A stretch of DNA of 53,531 nt from assembly GCA_913061415.1 (NCBI GenBank), contig CAJXUD010000019.1:1-53531 (forward strand), read 5' to 3'. Of this stretch, positions 49,235-53,531 are shown piece after piece. Below the pieces are notes generated by a model that had not been told where the DNA came from, searched no databases, and saw nothing but the letters and a program-made list of their open reading frames with translations. Both the position numbers and the translations under genes were made by a program. Source of the DNA: an uncultured Oleispira sp. Lineage in GTDB: Bacteria; Pseudomonadota; Gammaproteobacteria; Pseudomonadales; Oceanobacteraceae. The stretch's first letter is position 1. Each line of letters begins with the position of its first letter.

Positions 49235-50338
49235 TTAAGCCTGGCTAGCATCAAATGCAGCACGACGCGCCAGTGCTTCTAAGCGATTGGCCTCATTCTC
49301 AGCCTCAGTAGGAACTTTGCTTAACGCCGTGCGCAATACTTCAATTCCCGATCCAGGCTTATGTGCATTTTCACTGATATAGCGACGGAACTGACGAGCC
49401 CCGGGCTGACCATGAAAGATCCCCAGTATATGGCGAGTAATGTGCGATAAATAGATATCTTTGGACAGCTGCTCTTCAATATACGGCATGAAATCTTCAA
49501 CGACTTTATGGCGAGAGGGAATCGCTCTGTCATGACCAAAAAATGCATTATCAACCTCTGCCATGATGTAAGGGTTGTGATAAGCCTCTCGGCCAATCAT
49601 TACGCCATCAACATGCTCGAGCTGTTGCTTCATTTGATCAAACTGATTCAAGCCGCCATTGATTAAGATTTCTAGATTAGGGAAATCTTGCTTAAGCTGA
49701 TAAACCCAGTCGTATTTTAGTGGCGGAACATCACGGTTTTCTTTCGGTGATAGGCCTTGCAGGATGGCTTTGCGTGCATGAACAATAAATGTCTTGCAGC
49801 CTGTTTTCGCTATCGTTTCAATAAAGTTGACCAGTTCAGGGTAAGAGTCCTGGTCATCGATCCCGATGCGGTGCTTTACTGTGACATCAATATCAACCGC
49901 ATCTTGCATCGCTTTAATGCCGTCAGCAACGAGCTGTGGATGACCCATTAAACAAGCGCCAATCATATTGTTTTGTACGCGATCACTTGGGCAGCCGACA
50001 TTGAGATTAACTTCGTCGTAGCCCCATTCTTGTGCGTATTTTGCGCATTCAGCAAGTTCTTTGGTATTGCTACCGCCCAGTTGTAGTGCGATTGGGTGTT
50101 CTTCTTGCCCATAGCCTAAGAAGCGCTCGCGGTTATTGCCATGGATGATGGCTCCGGTAGTCACCATCTCGGTATATAGCACAGCATCGCGAGTCAGGTG
50201 GCGCCAGAATTGACGGCAATGACTATCAGACCATTCCATCATCGGTGCAGTGGTGAATCTACGATTCACGCTATTGCTGGCTTTGCTAGAATCGGCGGGG
50301 GCTGTAGCTGTTTTTGTGTTGTCGTTTGCTTGCGTCAT
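49235..50338 (-). CDS. dusA: tRNA-dihydrouridine(20/20a) synthase
   Basis: Flavin-dependent enzyme of 367 aa that reduces uridine-20/20a in tRNA. After a variable 25-residue N-terminus rich in Ala/Thr/Ser, the core has FTTAPMMEWSDSHCRQFWR, the active-site Cys116 in NLNVGCPSDRVQ, IDVTVKHRIGIDD and INGGLN. It ends near RRAAFDASQ. An integrase gene is transcribed divergently from directly upstream, and dusA is a documented integration target for mobile elements, so this marks an island boundary. Confidence 0.95.
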   Translation of the reverse strand: MTQANDNTKTATAPADSSKASNSVNRRFTTAPMMEWSDSHCRQFWRHLTRDAVLYTEMVTTGAIIHGNNRERFLGYGQEEHPIALQLGGSNTKELAECAKYAQEWGYDEVNLNVGCPSDRVQNNMIGACLMGHPQLVADGIKAMQDAVDIDVTVKHRIGIDDQDSYPELVNFIETIAKTGCKTFIVHARKAILQGLSPKENRDVPPLKYDWVYQLKQDFPNLEILINGGLNQFDQMKQQLEHVDGVMIGREAYHNPYIMAEVDNAFFGHDRAIPSRHKVVEDFMPYIEEQLSKDIYLSHITRHILGIFHGQPGARQFRRYISENAHKPGSGIEVLRTALSKVPTEAENEANRLEALARRAAFDASQA

Positions 50339-50372
50339 TATGTGCTTTATGTGGTATGTTGTGTATATAGGT

Positions 50373-50431
50373 GTGACAAAAGTGCGCTAAGTTTTTGGTA
50401 AATATCCTTGTCACCCCGCAATTTGTCACCC
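50373..50431. other. Repeated GTGACAA/TTGTCAC motifs in the dusA-integrase gap
   Basis: GTGACAA at 50373-50379 is the reverse complement of TTGTCAC, which occurs at 50408-50414 and 50423-50429 (each within TTGTCACCC, 15 bp apart). Three copies within 60 bp between dusA and the integrase resemble arm-type recombinase or excisionase binding sites, and this gap is the expected attachment region. Confidence 0.5.
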
Positions 50432-50459
50432 TGTTCAAAATTATGGCATGGAGTATAAC

Positions 50460-51620
50460 ATGGCGAGCTTTAGAAAAAGAGAGAGAGCGGATGGCTCGTT
50501 CAGTTATACAGCTTATTTGCGCTACAAGCGTAAAGGTAAAATGGTTTATACCGAAAGTGAGACGTTCCCAAAGAAAAAATTGGCTGAGGTTTGGGCAGCT
50601 AAGCGTGAGGCGCAGCTGTCCGAGCTGGGTGCGCTGGAACGAGCCATTTCGGGAATGGAATCAAATAGTATGACGGTTGGTGAATTGATCGATCGTTATT
50701 TTGCTGAGGTATTCCCCTTGAAGCCCTGGGGACGATCAAAAACAGATACGCTAAAACTGATAAAAAACTCAGAATTTGGTCAGTTAGCTGCGTCAACTGT
50801 TAGGGCGTCAGATATTATTACTCATTGCCGTAAGTGGAATGAGCGCAGTTCGTCTTCAACCACCATGCAACACTACATCTATATAAAGGGTGTGTTTGGT
50901 GTGGCCACTGAATTGTTGCGTTGTGAGGTTGATTACTCTCAGATTGATATTGCACAACGCACGATGTCTAAGCTGGGCATAATATCGAAGGCAGGTAGTC
51001 GTGATCTTCGGCCCACGGTAGAACAAATGACTAAGGTTGTTTCCCTGGCACACAGTCGCCGGTTAAAGTGGGCAGCATCAAACAAGTCACGTAAAGACAT
51101 TATTCCCATGGATAAGATAATTGTGTTTGCTATGTTTTCTTCTAGAAGGCAGGGCGAGTTCAGCCGTATGCTGCGATCGAATACCGATTATGAACGTAAG
51201 CGTGTTCTTATTCCCGACATGAAGCATCCAACTAAAAAAATAGGGAATGATGTGTGGGTGCTGATACCTGATGAAGCCTGGGACGTAATGCTATCAATGC
51301 CGGTGAGTGAAGATAAACCCGATCATTGGTTTCCGTATTTTCACAAGACGCTTGGCGAGCGCTTTAGGCAGCTATGGAAAGAATGCGGCAATTACAATCC
51401 AGATGGTGATAATGTACGCTTTCATGATCTGCGCCACGAATGTCCATCTTGGTTGTTTGAGCGTGATGGGTTGAATGGTGAGCGCTGGGATGTTGCAAGA
51501 GTCGCTGCAGTGACGGGGCACCAGTCTTGGGAGTCATTGAAACGTTATGCGCAAATAGAAAATATAGAGCCTAATAATAAATGGGCTAGCTGGGTGTTTT
51601 CTCAAAAGGTAGTCGAGTAA
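50460..51620 (+). CDS. Tyrosine recombinase/phage-type integrase
   Basis: Site-specific recombinase of 386 aa. An N-terminal arm-binding and SAM-like region (about 1-165) precedes the catalytic domain with its tetrad: Arg in SSRRQGEFSRM, FHDLRHECPSW (HxxR), TGHQS and the nucleophile Tyr in KRYAQIEN. I chose the ATG at 50460, with GGAG 7 bp upstream, over the one at 50448. It is oriented away from dusA and located 121 bp from the dusA start, consistent with a dusA-specific integrase of the island continuing to the right edge. Confidence 0.93.
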   Translation: MASFRKRERADGSFSYTAYLRYKRKGKMVYTESETFPKKKLAEVWAAKREAQLSELGALERAISGMESNSMTVGELIDRYFAEVFPLKPWGRSKTDTLKLIKNSEFGQLAASTVRASDIITHCRKWNERSSSSTTMQHYIYIKGVFGVATELLRCEVDYSQIDIAQRTMSKLGIISKAGSRDLRPTVEQMTKVVSLAHSRRLKWAASNKSRKDIIPMDKIIVFAMFSSRRQGEFSRMLRSNTDYERKRVLIPDMKHPTKKIGNDVWVLIPDEAWDVMLSMPVSEDKPDHWFPYFHKTLGERFRQLWKECGNYNPDGDNVRFHDLRHECPSWLFERDGLNGERWDVARVAAVTGHQSWESLKRYAQIENIEPNNKWASWVFSQKVVE

Positions 51621-51631
51621 GCTAGCTTTCA

Positions 51632-51660
51632 TTGTATATATTATTGATTGGACCTATTAT
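51632..51660 (+). promoter_or_regulatory. Promoter candidate for the three-gene cargo module
   Basis: TTGTAT (51632-51637) and TATTAT (51655-51660) are separated by exactly 17 bp, 24 bp before the start of the first cargo gene. It would make the module independent of the integrase transcript. Confidence 0.5.
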
Positions 51661-51684
51661 GCATAGACTAATAAGGAGGCTTGT

Positions 51685-52590
51685 TTGAGTAAGGTTAGGG
51701 ATATCCAAAGAAGTGTATGTCATGCACCTCCGCAGTTGTGTTGTTACGGAAATGTTCAGATGTCTATGGCCTTCTTTCAGAATATTGAAAAGCAGGTGTT
51801 TATTAATGAGCGATACGTAGAGCTAGATTTTAGTCAAACTGTTCATATTACAGCTGCTGCTGCTTTGTATTTAGTTTCGGTCGTAACAAAATGTCAGAAC
51901 TGCGCTCCGAAAAATATAATGTATCCCCATATAGTTGTATCATATAAATTTCCTCCTGATGATATAAAATGGAGGCTGTTTGATAGCACTGGAATATTGG
52001 AAATTATCAAACCCGGAGGGAAAAAGAAATTAGATCAAGTTTGGGAGGATTTATCTAACCCATTTCAGACTGGAAATGATCCAGCTAAGCAATTTCCTCG
52101 AATGCTCGATTGGTATAGAAGTTTAGATATTGGCCCTGTGCCTCAGAAGCTACATAGTGCTGTTCAAGAAGGTTATTTAAATATCAAGCAGCACGCATAT
52201 GATAAGCATATGACAGTAGATTTTCTTAAGTATCGTTGGTGGCTTTATGCTGTGCATGATAGTACGTTAAATCGAGTTGCATTCCTTTTGCTTGATCGAG
52301 GTTTGGGGATTCCTCGGCATGTAAATTTGCCAGAAGGCGCTAAAAGTAATGATGTAGGGAGGATTGCTATTGCGATGCAAAAGGGGTGGTCGTCCACCGG
52401 TGAGCCTGGAAGGGGTCGAGGAACTGAGAATATTAGAAAGCCAATTAATTTAAAAGATAATGATGATAGGTTAATGGTGATGAGCGGTATGGGGAAATAC
52501 AACTATATTAAAGGAAGTGATCCCAGATTAGAGCCGCTACCAGTTAACTTTCAAGGAACACTTATTGAGTGGTCCTTAAGCTTGGATTGA
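51685..52590 (+). CDS. STAS-like plus HATPase (GHKL) domain signalling protein
   Basis: Cytoplasmic protein of 301 aa. Residues about 20-110 are STAS-like (VELDFSQTVHITAAAALYLV). Residues about 150-300 contain the ATP-binding boxes of the GHKL fold: N-box EGYLNIKQHAY (162-172), G1 DRGLGI (204-209) and G2 GRGRGTENI (242-250). The architecture resembles anti-sigma-factor serine kinases (SpoIIAB/RsbW) and MutL/Hsp90-type ATPases; no histidine phosphoacceptor domain is present. It starts at TTG 51685, supported by AAGGAGG. First of three tightly spaced genes; the base composition is AT-richer than the core genes. Confidence 0.85.
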   Translation: MSKVRDIQRSVCHAPPQLCCYGNVQMSMAFFQNIEKQVFINERYVELDFSQTVHITAAAALYLVSVVTKCQNCAPKNIMYPHIVVSYKFPPDDIKWRLFDSTGILEIIKPGGKKKLDQVWEDLSNPFQTGNDPAKQFPRMLDWYRSLDIGPVPQKLHSAVQEGYLNIKQHAYDKHMTVDFLKYRWWLYAVHDSTLNRVAFLLLDRGLGIPRHVNLPEGAKSNDVGRIAIAMQKGWSSTGEPGRGRGTENIRKPINLKDNDDRLMVMSGMGKYNYIKGSDPRLEPLPVNFQGTLIEWSLSLD

Positions 52591-52596
52591 TATGAT

Positions 52597-52926
52597 ATGA
52601 ATGATGTGATTTTGATTAAGGTGTCTGATTTTAGTAAATCTCCCTTTGGACGTGTTAAAGAAGATGGCCCGAATAATGGCAGAAGATTTCGCACTGAAAC
52701 GCTGTGTAAAGCTCTTAAGGTTTCGAATGTGACTGTTGATATGGATTCAGGCTTAGACGAAGGTTATGAGTATGGATCGTCTTTTCTGCATGAAGCTTTT
52801 GGTGGTTTAGTTATGCATGAAGGGTTCAAAGCAGCTGATCTTAAAAAAAGGTTAACTGTTGTTTCTAGTCATGAAGATGTGCTGATGGAAGTCTGGGATT
52901 ACATTAATGATCCTGCGGGATATTAG
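52597..52926 (+). CDS. STAS-like DUF4325 protein
   Basis: Soluble protein of 109 aa matching DUF4325. The FSKSPFGRVKEDGPNNGRRF block (residues 12-31) and YGSSFLHEAFGGL (59-71) are the family signature. The SS in the second block aligns in context with the phosphorylatable Ser of SpoIIAA-type STAS proteins (DSSGLG), so phosphorylation by the upstream HATPase protein is plausible (inference). DUF4325 genes are known to pair with HATPase genes. The start is 6 bp after the upstream stop, consistent with coupling. Confidence 0.87.
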   Translation: MNDVILIKVSDFSKSPFGRVKEDGPNNGRRFRTETLCKALKVSNVTVDMDSGLDEGYEYGSSFLHEAFGGLVMHEGFKAADLKKRLTVVSSHEDVLMEVWDYINDPAGY

Positions 52927-52929
52927 ATA

Positions 52930-53424
52930 ATGAATGTCATTGATTTTAGTGCATTGCAAACAGGAATAAGTGTTCTATTTTCATTTGTGCCGATTGCATT
53001 AATGATAATCGGCTGGAAAATACTGTTTAAGAATGCTCAGAGAATAGCTACGAGGTCCGAAACTTTTACAATCGTGAATGATTTAATTAACCAGTTAAAC
53101 AATGCTAGAGAAGGTTGTATTGATTATTGGTGTTCGGCCCAGCAGGATGATTTTAATGCAGAATTAGAATGGCAAAAATTGAAACCTTATATAACCTCAG
53201 TTAGATCTAGTAAGGATTTTTTGTCTGCCAATCGAAACATAAAAATTGGTCATAAAAGTATTGTCCAGTTTAGAAGGGCGCTAAGTTTTAATATGGTGAA
53301 TCTCTCGGTTGATGATTTTGAGAATGCAAGGAGTGAGAGTATAACCAATATACATAATGCCACGCAGTCATTTAAGGAGGAGCTTTTAACAAAGTTTGAG
53401 GCAAACTATCCTGCAAGATTTTGA
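52930..53424 (+). CDS. Single-pass membrane protein of the cargo module
   Basis: Protein of 164 aa with one strong N-terminal membrane helix (about residues 11-33, ISVLFSFVPIALMIIGWKIL) and a 130-residue cytoplasmic helical part (FTIVNDLINQLNNAREGCID; NARSESITNIHNATQSFKEE). I do not recognise a family. Its start lies 3 bp after the DUF4325 stop, making it the third coupled gene. By position it could be a membrane effector or receptor for the two signalling proteins; there is no sequence proof. Confidence 0.78.
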   Translation: MNVIDFSALQTGISVLFSFVPIALMIIGWKILFKNAQRIATRSETFTIVNDLINQLNNAREGCIDYWCSAQQDDFNAELEWQKLKPYITSVRSSKDFLSANRNIKIGHKSIVQFRRALSFNMVNLSVDDFENARSESITNIHNATQSFKEELLTKFEANYPARF

Positions 53425-53531
53425 GGTCTTTAACTCATTCAGAACTTGGTAATAAATTCACATAATAGAGTTGAGTAGAGACTGTGAATTAATTTGTGTA
53501 TTTGCTTATCATTGACCCAAAAGGGAGATAA

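Follow-up and report, generated by a model that had tools for sequence, protein, structure and literature searches.

The last 4.3 kb of a 53,531-nucleotide stretch of DNA from an uncultured Oleispira sp. (contig CAJXUD010000019.1, here contig C19; the whole stretch is called the window) hold dusA on the minus strand, a tyrosine integrase on the plus strand and then three tightly packed plus-strand genes: K, for a protein with a STAS-like and a GHKL half, S, for a DUF4325 protein, and M, for a protein with one transmembrane (TM) segment. The K-S-M trio is a real unit that occurs on phage, prophage, plasmid and chromosomal loci. It is interpreted here as a mobile kinase-substrate-effector switch, with M as the membrane output, that would protect its host, and through it the carrier element, from phage, a reading to which a probability of roughly 0.55 is given. 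The kind of switch is already known, VapKSC being the nearest described system, and what is new is the version with a membrane protein.

The evidence that the three genes belong together comes from their relatives. Seeds were taken from genome searches and from plasmid and phage records, the M seeds being chosen by position, and a DUF4325 alignment of 19 sequences (A1) retrieved relatives from genome contigs (331) and viral contigs (192). Of these the best 80 genome loci and the best 79 viral loci were kept, and the loci thus represent the DUF4325 genes nearest to the window's S rather than all of them. Among the 180 DUF4325 open reading frames (ORFs) of loci L013-L190, seeds included, 157 have K upstream (E<1e-3) and M downstream (E<1); the others have K and a different downstream ORF (8), K and none downstream (3), M only (8) or neither (4). 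A held-out test covered 157 loci absent from profile building (L033-L190 without L052), with 10,055 ORFs of which 159 are DUF4325 ORFs. At a cut-off of E<1e-3 for both partners, K was found at 150 of the 159, M at 140 and both at 132. The M profile matched 142 of the 10,055 ORFs, 140 of them immediately behind a DUF4325 gene under the rule applied, and the remaining two (L043 and L044) overlap the 3' end of the DUF4325 gene, starting 101 and 146 bases inside it. An earlier interpretation of the window, made from its letters alone (the sequence-only reading), had tied its idea of a module to the conservation of the third gene with the pair, and this conservation is borne out by these 140, or with the two overlapping genes 142, of 159 cases. 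No held-out K or M reaches 70% identity to any seed, and two held-out S proteins are at least 70% identical to one (L171 to that of phage AS1, 75%; L188 to L031, 71%). Near-duplicates are present in the set: a limit of 70% identity leaves 101 K, 87 S and 103 M of its 118 complete trios.

Spacing and descent point the same way. In 145 trios the K-S gap is at most 23 bp and the S-M gap at most 36 bp (measured between longest ORFs, so often negative), and the tree distances correlate at 0.66 for K-S, 0.81 for K-M and 0.60 for S-M against a maximum of 0.08 in 500 permutations, host phylogeny not being subtracted from these values. Of the loci in which the automatic rule missed a partner, 17 were read by eye. 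An M-like gene or gene piece is present despite the rule in L038, L043, L049, L055, L072, L083 and L142, and L099 ends 27 bases past S. Profiles were needed to find these relatives: as single-sequence queries, P0002 in viral contigs and P0001 (K) in genome contigs returned none, and tblastn gave no match for P0001 and P0003 in phages or for P0003 in plasmids. At L114 (8943-9266) and L115 (9593-9916), on the minus strand, an additional DUF4325 gene, which has an M relative of its own, faces the complete trio of the viral contig; no kinase was found for it before the contig end.

As the sequence-only reading had held, K starts at a TTG behind a Shine-Dalgarno sequence and joins a STAS-like half to intact GHKL boxes (Table 1). 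Residues E162, N166, W186, D204, G206, G244, G246, G291, T292 and W296 are invariant in 102 of 102 family members. W186 and W296, which we take to fall outside the usual GHKL boxes, may mark a trait particular to this branch. Pfam gave a sub-threshold match to HATPase_c_2 alone (E 0.057). The architecture is seen in the AlphaFold2 (AF2) model (predicted local distance difference test, pLDDT, 92.1; predicted TM-score, pTM, 0.91), with a beta-alpha N-terminal half and a GHKL half. The order of strands and helices in the N-terminal half of the model is STAS-like (no STAS match is among those listed), and Foldseek matched the GHKL half to SpoIIAB (1tid_C, E 2.7e-4), amid the ATPase domains of topoisomerase VI, gyrase B and Hsp90 type. 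The best solved relatives of the K sequence profile are RsbW (E 0.00079, 29 positions) and SpoIIAB (from E 0.0068). Phosphotransfer between GHKL and STAS proteins is established, and from motifs and homology we infer a kinase chemistry for K. In 81 of the 102 relatives the STAS half is preceded by a basic stretch 35 or more residues long (median net charge +13, minimum +5; starts were set by the longest ORF), and long N-termini are also found in annotated records, such as the 371-aa K of AS1. The window's K does not have this stretch.

S is the sole DUF4325 match in the window's genome and scores above the curated Pfam cut-off for PF14213 (37.5 bits against 23, E 1.9e-9). It begins 6 bp after K, and M follows after another 3 bp, in agreement with the sequence-only reading, as is the single membrane helix of M in its AF2 model. 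The phospho-acceptor of S is ambiguous between two adjacent candidates, Ser61 and Ser62. The latter is Ser in 88 of 88 family members, and at the former 81 have Ser, 5 Arg, 1 Thr and 1 Ala. Among the 19 S seeds, 18 have Ser at position 62, the exception being L029, a locus without a kinase. The search patterns start at F63 and L64 and force parts of F63-R73, so neither serine was imposed by them. Ser62 is favoured by its invariance and by the relatives with Arg at 61, the kinases of the family keeping all catalytic residues (102/102), while Ser61 is favoured by its alignment with Ser48 of VapS. Some DUF4325 genes stand apart from any kinase. In the Vibrio loci L028/L029 (5947-6681) the gene is followed by one for a protein with two hydrophobic segments and no match to the M profile, an ImmA/IrrE peptidase gene lies two genes before on the opposite strand, and SSGF replaces GSSF (seen in L029); L031 likewise has a DUF4325 gene without a kinase.

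M matched no Pfam family. Its AF2 model (pLDDT 92.9, pTM 0.81) is all-helical, with helices at 6-69, 74-102, 108-119 and 127-159, and the single N-terminal hydrophobic segment is modelled as part of the one long helix; M is thus confidently modelled as a membrane-anchored helical bundle. Conserved positions among 100 relatives are G28 (91), W29 (81), R42 (87), E44 (79) and Thr/Ser at 119 (97). In 96 of the 100 the 20 residues after the TM segment hold more Lys/Arg than the part before it, which is short (median 4.5 residues, absent in 27). In an equal-length comparison of the 50 relatives with at least five residues before the segment, the side after it has more Lys/Arg in 30, as many in 13 and fewer in 7. 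The helical domain is therefore likely cytoplasmic. Foldseek found no PDB match below E 0.1, and the best viral match is a 159-residue protein (E 0.002), the same length as the third protein of AS1. All three window proteins match PHROGs families, K phrog_3364 (E 6.4e-31), S 5816 and M 30059 and 17519, to which PHROGs assigns no function.

The passages of Chambers et al. (EMBO J 2026, PMC13373217) on VapKSC describe a STAS-GHKL kinase, a STAS antitoxin and the toxin VapC, which protect against phage Bas42, the protection being lost with VapS S48A. They report activation by single-stranded DNA (ssDNA) as shown for CapK and proposed for VapK, with an aromatic residue (CapK W68, VapK F54) that stacks on the ssDNA. 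The trio resembles VapKSC, as described in those passages, in its three-gene order of STAS-GHKL kinase, STAS protein with a conserved Ser/Thr and small third protein, in the absolute conservation of that residue (S62, 88/88) and in a K which, like VapK, has no recognised helix-turn-helix (HTH) in Pfam. The differences lie in the third protein, which is helical with one TM segment and not a PIN nuclease (no Pfam match; AF2), in the aromatic at the ssDNA groove, which is not conserved in the K family (His54 in the window's K; F/W/Y in 18 of 102 in the aligned column), and in the basic stretch that most K relatives carry. Given the different third gene and the unconserved aromatic, the trio is not a member of VapKSC. 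The M family gave two single weak PIN-like matches (E 0.0094 and 0.011).

At the level of single proteins, K and S resemble VapK and VapS remotely. The 19-sequence S profile reached Escherichia VapS (9z7o) at E 0.0016. An operon on plasmid P5 of Deinococcus gobiensis (L192, 2015-3861) encodes a kinase, a STAS protein and a PIN protein in this order and looks like a VapKSC. By hhalign, with E values for one pair, its kinase matches the K profile (probability 97.0, E 1.1e-10) and its STAS protein the S profile (probability 87.6, E 3.5e-6), and its PIN protein has no match to the M profile (probability 2.7). The alignment to the K profile suggests that W53 of the Deinococcus kinase is equivalent to VapK F54. 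The sequence-only reading had K phosphorylating a Ser-Ser motif of S. The kinase-substrate pairing gains from this homology, the matching Ser of VapS being needed for protection according to the passages on it (PMC13373217), and the acceptor within the motif stays divided between positions 61 and 62.

Two other known systems share parts of this layout. CapK and CapS, a STAS-GHKL kinase followed by its STAS substrate, are associated with immune genes and regulate transcription; CapK has an N-terminal HTH, and the winged HTH of CapS represses a separate, adjacent immune operon (passages of PMC13373217). The trio shares the order of kinase and STAS partner and differs in that the window's K and S (109 aa) have no HTH or other DNA-binding family in Pfam and in that M belongs to the unit.

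The partner switches SpoIIAB/SpoIIAA and RsbW/RsbV share with the trio a GHKL kinase with a SpoIIAB-like fold and N box and, in SpoIIAA, a STAS partner with a Ser (Ser58) at a helix start. In K, by contrast with SpoIIAB and RsbW, a STAS half is fused to the kinase, and the trio has a membrane partner. Nor is a sigma factor found by the trio, apart from one Sigma70_ner match in 143 flanking genes, and PP2C is absent, among the families listed for flanking genes. The window's K, S and M match no model of PADLOC-DB 2.0, and the 102 K relatives gave matches to DrmA (2), Effector (1) and PDC-M13B (1) only (best E 0.0025). No description of a K-S-membrane module was found in open-licence PMC papers, preprints not included. 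WonAB is unrelated, WonA being an ABC ATPase and WonB a nuclease in the passages on it (PMC12137116), and the lone HATPase mention in the passages on DefensePredictor and WonAB is a Shedu protein (PMC12137116, PMC13092281). The int-cI region of Haemophilus phage HP1, a weak fold match, has no such trio in its annotated gene layout, by which alone it was compared.

The combined results suggest a model of how the trio may operate. K would be a serine kinase of the CapK/VapK type and S its DUF4325/STAS substrate. In the resting state, unphosphorylated S would bind the cytoplasmic domain of M and hold it inactive; a stress or phage signal would activate K, which would phosphorylate S at Ser61 or Ser62, and S would release M. 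Freed M would then act at the inner membrane, stopping growth or blocking the infecting phage. Each of these steps, from phosphorylation and S-M binding through the membrane side, the trigger and the toxicity of M to the anti-phage effect, is proposed by analogy with the related switches and from the features of the proteins. The trio would be accessory cargo of prophages, plasmids and islands, in keeping with a function that shields the host, and hence the element, from other phages. A bolder form of this proposal, put forward tentatively and with somewhat less than even odds, sees a widespread and so far undescribed kind of phage-defence switch in which the STAS-GHKL kinase phosphorylates the DUF4325 protein and so releases a membrane-acting effector, in prophages of many Proteobacteria, including Escherichia coli, excluding competing phages; the kinase would perhaps sense nucleic acid through the basic N-terminal extension of most relatives.

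The contexts of the trio agree in part with such cargo. In Marinobacter phage AS1 it is close to a Cro/CI gene, and in a Pasteurella plasmid record full of phage genes it directly follows an XRE regulator whose PHROGs matches are CI-type repressors. Plasmids of Vibrio, Acinetobacter and Leptospira carry further trios, some of them close to known toxin-antitoxin pairs; the Acinetobacter wuhouensis record has a short K (164 codons annotated) with an insertion sequence ahead, and on a Novosphingobium plasmid the annotated K-S pair is followed by an unannotated 183-aa ORF, used as an M seed. In a search of 5,426 E. coli genomes with the DNA of one trio, 136 gave a match, which in ten covers at least 80% of the trio's length with at least 99% identity; megablast of the L174 trio DNA gave no match among the E. 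coli genomes. In three E. coli prophage loci the gene right after the trio is annotated as a site-specific integrase (two) or an Arm DNA-binding protein (one). Among viral loci an integrase is immediately downstream in 23 of the 75 that have a gene there, and 14 of 61 have a CI-type gene among the three genes upstream. With either kind of gene counted up to four genes away, the figures are 43 of 79 viral loci and 16 of 80 genome loci; three of the loci counted here were among the seeds from which the profiles were iterated. When flanks were clustered, 152 of the 178 loci retained their DUF4325 gene, and the largest family (CI-type) was found in 16 of these 152; later context counts use the corrected gene choice. 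The scan of genome-locus flanks covered complete flanking genes, at most two per side (143 right, 142 left). Among the families listed, integrases account for 6 of the 143 and 2 of the 142, and no Pfam family listed matches more than six flanking genes. The idea of a mobile rather than stable setting, raised in the sequence-only reading, is thus upheld in part: the phage and plasmid records, the viral contigs, the three E. coli prophage loci and dusA speak for it, and of the genome loci only 16 of 80 have an integrase or CI-type gene that near. Its proposed tabulation of neighbours showed that the membrane gene recurs and that an integrase or CI-type gene is often near in viral loci, and yielded few matches to defence models.

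Several observations weigh against the switch as proposed. As the ssDNA-contact aromatic is not conserved in K, the trigger may differ from that of CapK and VapK. S is only weakly similar to VapS (E 0.085 for 9z7o with the 88-sequence profile), and 7 of 88 S proteins have Arg, Thr or Ala where VapS has Ser48. M has no recognisable toxin fold or family, its label of effector follows solely from its place in the operon, and the Lys/Arg comparison supports the membrane side weakly. No integrase or CI-type gene is within four genes in 64 of the 80 genome loci. The genome-locus flanks hold single matches to mads, ThsC and PDC models, for which there is no background rate. Among the families listed, the left flanks (n=142) include three type I specificity subunits and three proteins with MutS domains, the latter counting among housekeeping families along with single IspD, Tex and Leu_Phe_trans matches.

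The main rival turns the switch around and makes M its input. As an anchor or sensor in the inner membrane, M would hold or activate the K-S switch and signal that the envelope is damaged or a phage is entering, and some other partner of S or K would be the output. Helical sensor domains, from chemoreceptors and from histidine kinases, are among the weak, non-significant Foldseek matches of M (none below E 0.1), the K and M trees are the best correlated (r 0.81), and with the aromatic of CapK/VapK not conserved another input may be required. Such an arrangement would, however, call for an output gene, and no fourth gene recurs widely (CI-type in 16/152 loci; listed Pfam families in at most six flanking genes); the third place is also that of the effector in VapKSC as the passages on it describe (PMC13373217). 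This explanation is accordingly considered unlikely, although it is the strongest of the alternatives. Still less probable is a role in regulating the carrier element, in lysogeny, excision or stress-induced prophage behaviour, rather than in host defence. That the trio is frequently adjacent, in viral contigs, to a gene for an integrase or CI-type repressor would suit it, as would the regulation of transcription by the related CapK and CapS (passages of PMC13373217), but the window's K and S have no recognised DNA-binding domain in Pfam, and the trio is also found on plasmids, in chromosomal loci without a nearby integrase or CI-type gene and, in genome G178, on its own at dusA. A toxin-antitoxin-like module for element stability, with incidental phage protection, is least probable: it is in line with the recurrence on plasmids, at times near known toxin-antitoxin pairs, but a kinase gate exceeds the needs of addiction, and integrated prophages and islands would gain less from post-segregational killing.

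A phage-protective kinase-substrate-effector switch would, if true, make the kinase-STAS gate a general control unit for varied effectors, from immune operons and a nuclease toxin to a membrane protein. It offers a concrete joint role that can be tested, both for PHROGs families without a known function and for a branch of DUF4325, and the ten E. coli genomes with a trio of at least 99% identity are complete genomes, which brings the system within reach of laboratory strains.

In the window the trio is carried by an element at dusA. The integrase, placed at dusA in the sequence-only reading as well, adjoins this gene (Table 1), and the close integrase has dusA beside it in all 15 loci, counting that of the window. 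Close relatives of the integrase occur in 15 of 390 genomes of the order and relatives of K in 9 of 390, again with the window's own. The integrase was rejected as a fixed partner of the trio, a K relative being present in just 2 of the 15 integrase-bearing genomes (G000, G259). In the window's family (18 genomes), hflD is directly at dusA in nine (L224, L227, L228, L229, L231-L234 and L237); in the window's own genome it is on another contig, and no other genome of the genus has hflD at dusA. With an integrase at dusA and a junction absent from uninserted relatives of the family, the element is dusA-integrated, its right end being unseen.

Two further genomes illustrate the site. In G178 the trio alone sits between hflD and dusA, as a solo insert. 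In G259 the trio adjoins hflD and an integrase (59% identical) adjoins dusA about 34 kb away, and G390, from the same genus, has hflD directly at dusA. Ten proteins of the G259 stretch were compared with PHROGs; seven match (terminase, portal, major head protein, tail protein, primase, methyltransferase and integrase) and three do not, which places the trio at the integrase-distal end of a dusA prophage. Identity between the window's K and the K proteins of G178 and G259 is 33-34%. Between G178 and G259 themselves it is 46% for K, 55% for S and 37% for M; the window's trio therefore looks like a separate arrival, and the G178 and G259 trios may share one. An attachment-site-like (att-like) motif, GCGCACTTTTGTCACACC, is common to G000, G259 and G178 (16-17 of 18 positions). 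Its best match in the nine hflD-dusA sites reaches no more than 11 of 18 positions, and the other 13 integrase loci give 10-14. Exact-match att repeats of at least 9 bases (at least 11 for one pair) were absent from the G178 and G259 junctions. A 14/18 match to the motif lies about 51 bp before dusA in L221 (G332, same genus), a genome in which no close integrase was found, and is possibly another dusA element or a remnant.

Table 1. Positions of the trio and of neighbouring features in the window
Feature	Position	Strand	Basis or remark
K: STAS-like N-terminal half and GHKL ATPase/kinase half	51685-52590	+	301 aa, TTG start; phrog_3364, AF2, Foldseek
K boxes	protein positions		N box E162/N166; G1 D204-x-G206; G2 G244-x-G246; G291-T292
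S: DUF4325 STAS-like protein, candidate phospho-acceptor Ser61/Ser62	52597-52926	+	109 aa; PF14213
M: one-TM membrane protein with helical domain, probably cytoplasmic; proposed effector	52930-53424	+	164 aa; AF2
Shine-Dalgarno AGGAGG ahead of the TTG start of K	51674-51679	+	seen in sequence
Tyrosine integrase of the dusA element	50448-51620	+	Pfam Phage_integrase E 5.9e-8
dusA (tRNA dihydrouridine synthase), integration target	49235-50338	-	adjoins integrase
att-like motif GCGCACTTTTGTCACACC, ~50 bp before dusA	50370-50387	-	motif defined after inspecting three loci
55-bp end of contig C19, common to end of contig C25: start of repeated element	53477-53531	.	

The promoter candidate that the sequence-only reading had assigned to the trio did not hold up. 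The scan gave no promoter-like site in the 64-bp gap between the integrase and K, and the 11 sites over 50300-53531 are not above the 9.1 +/- 3.1 of shuffled sequences. The guanine-plus-cytosine content falls from 0.453 in the integrase to 0.394 in K, 0.388 in S and 0.347 in M, that of the whole window being 0.427. The window is the end of its contig, which stops 107 bp past M. Its final 55 bases recur in reverse complement as the first 55 of contig C25, and a repeat, perhaps an insertion sequence, thus follows the trio.

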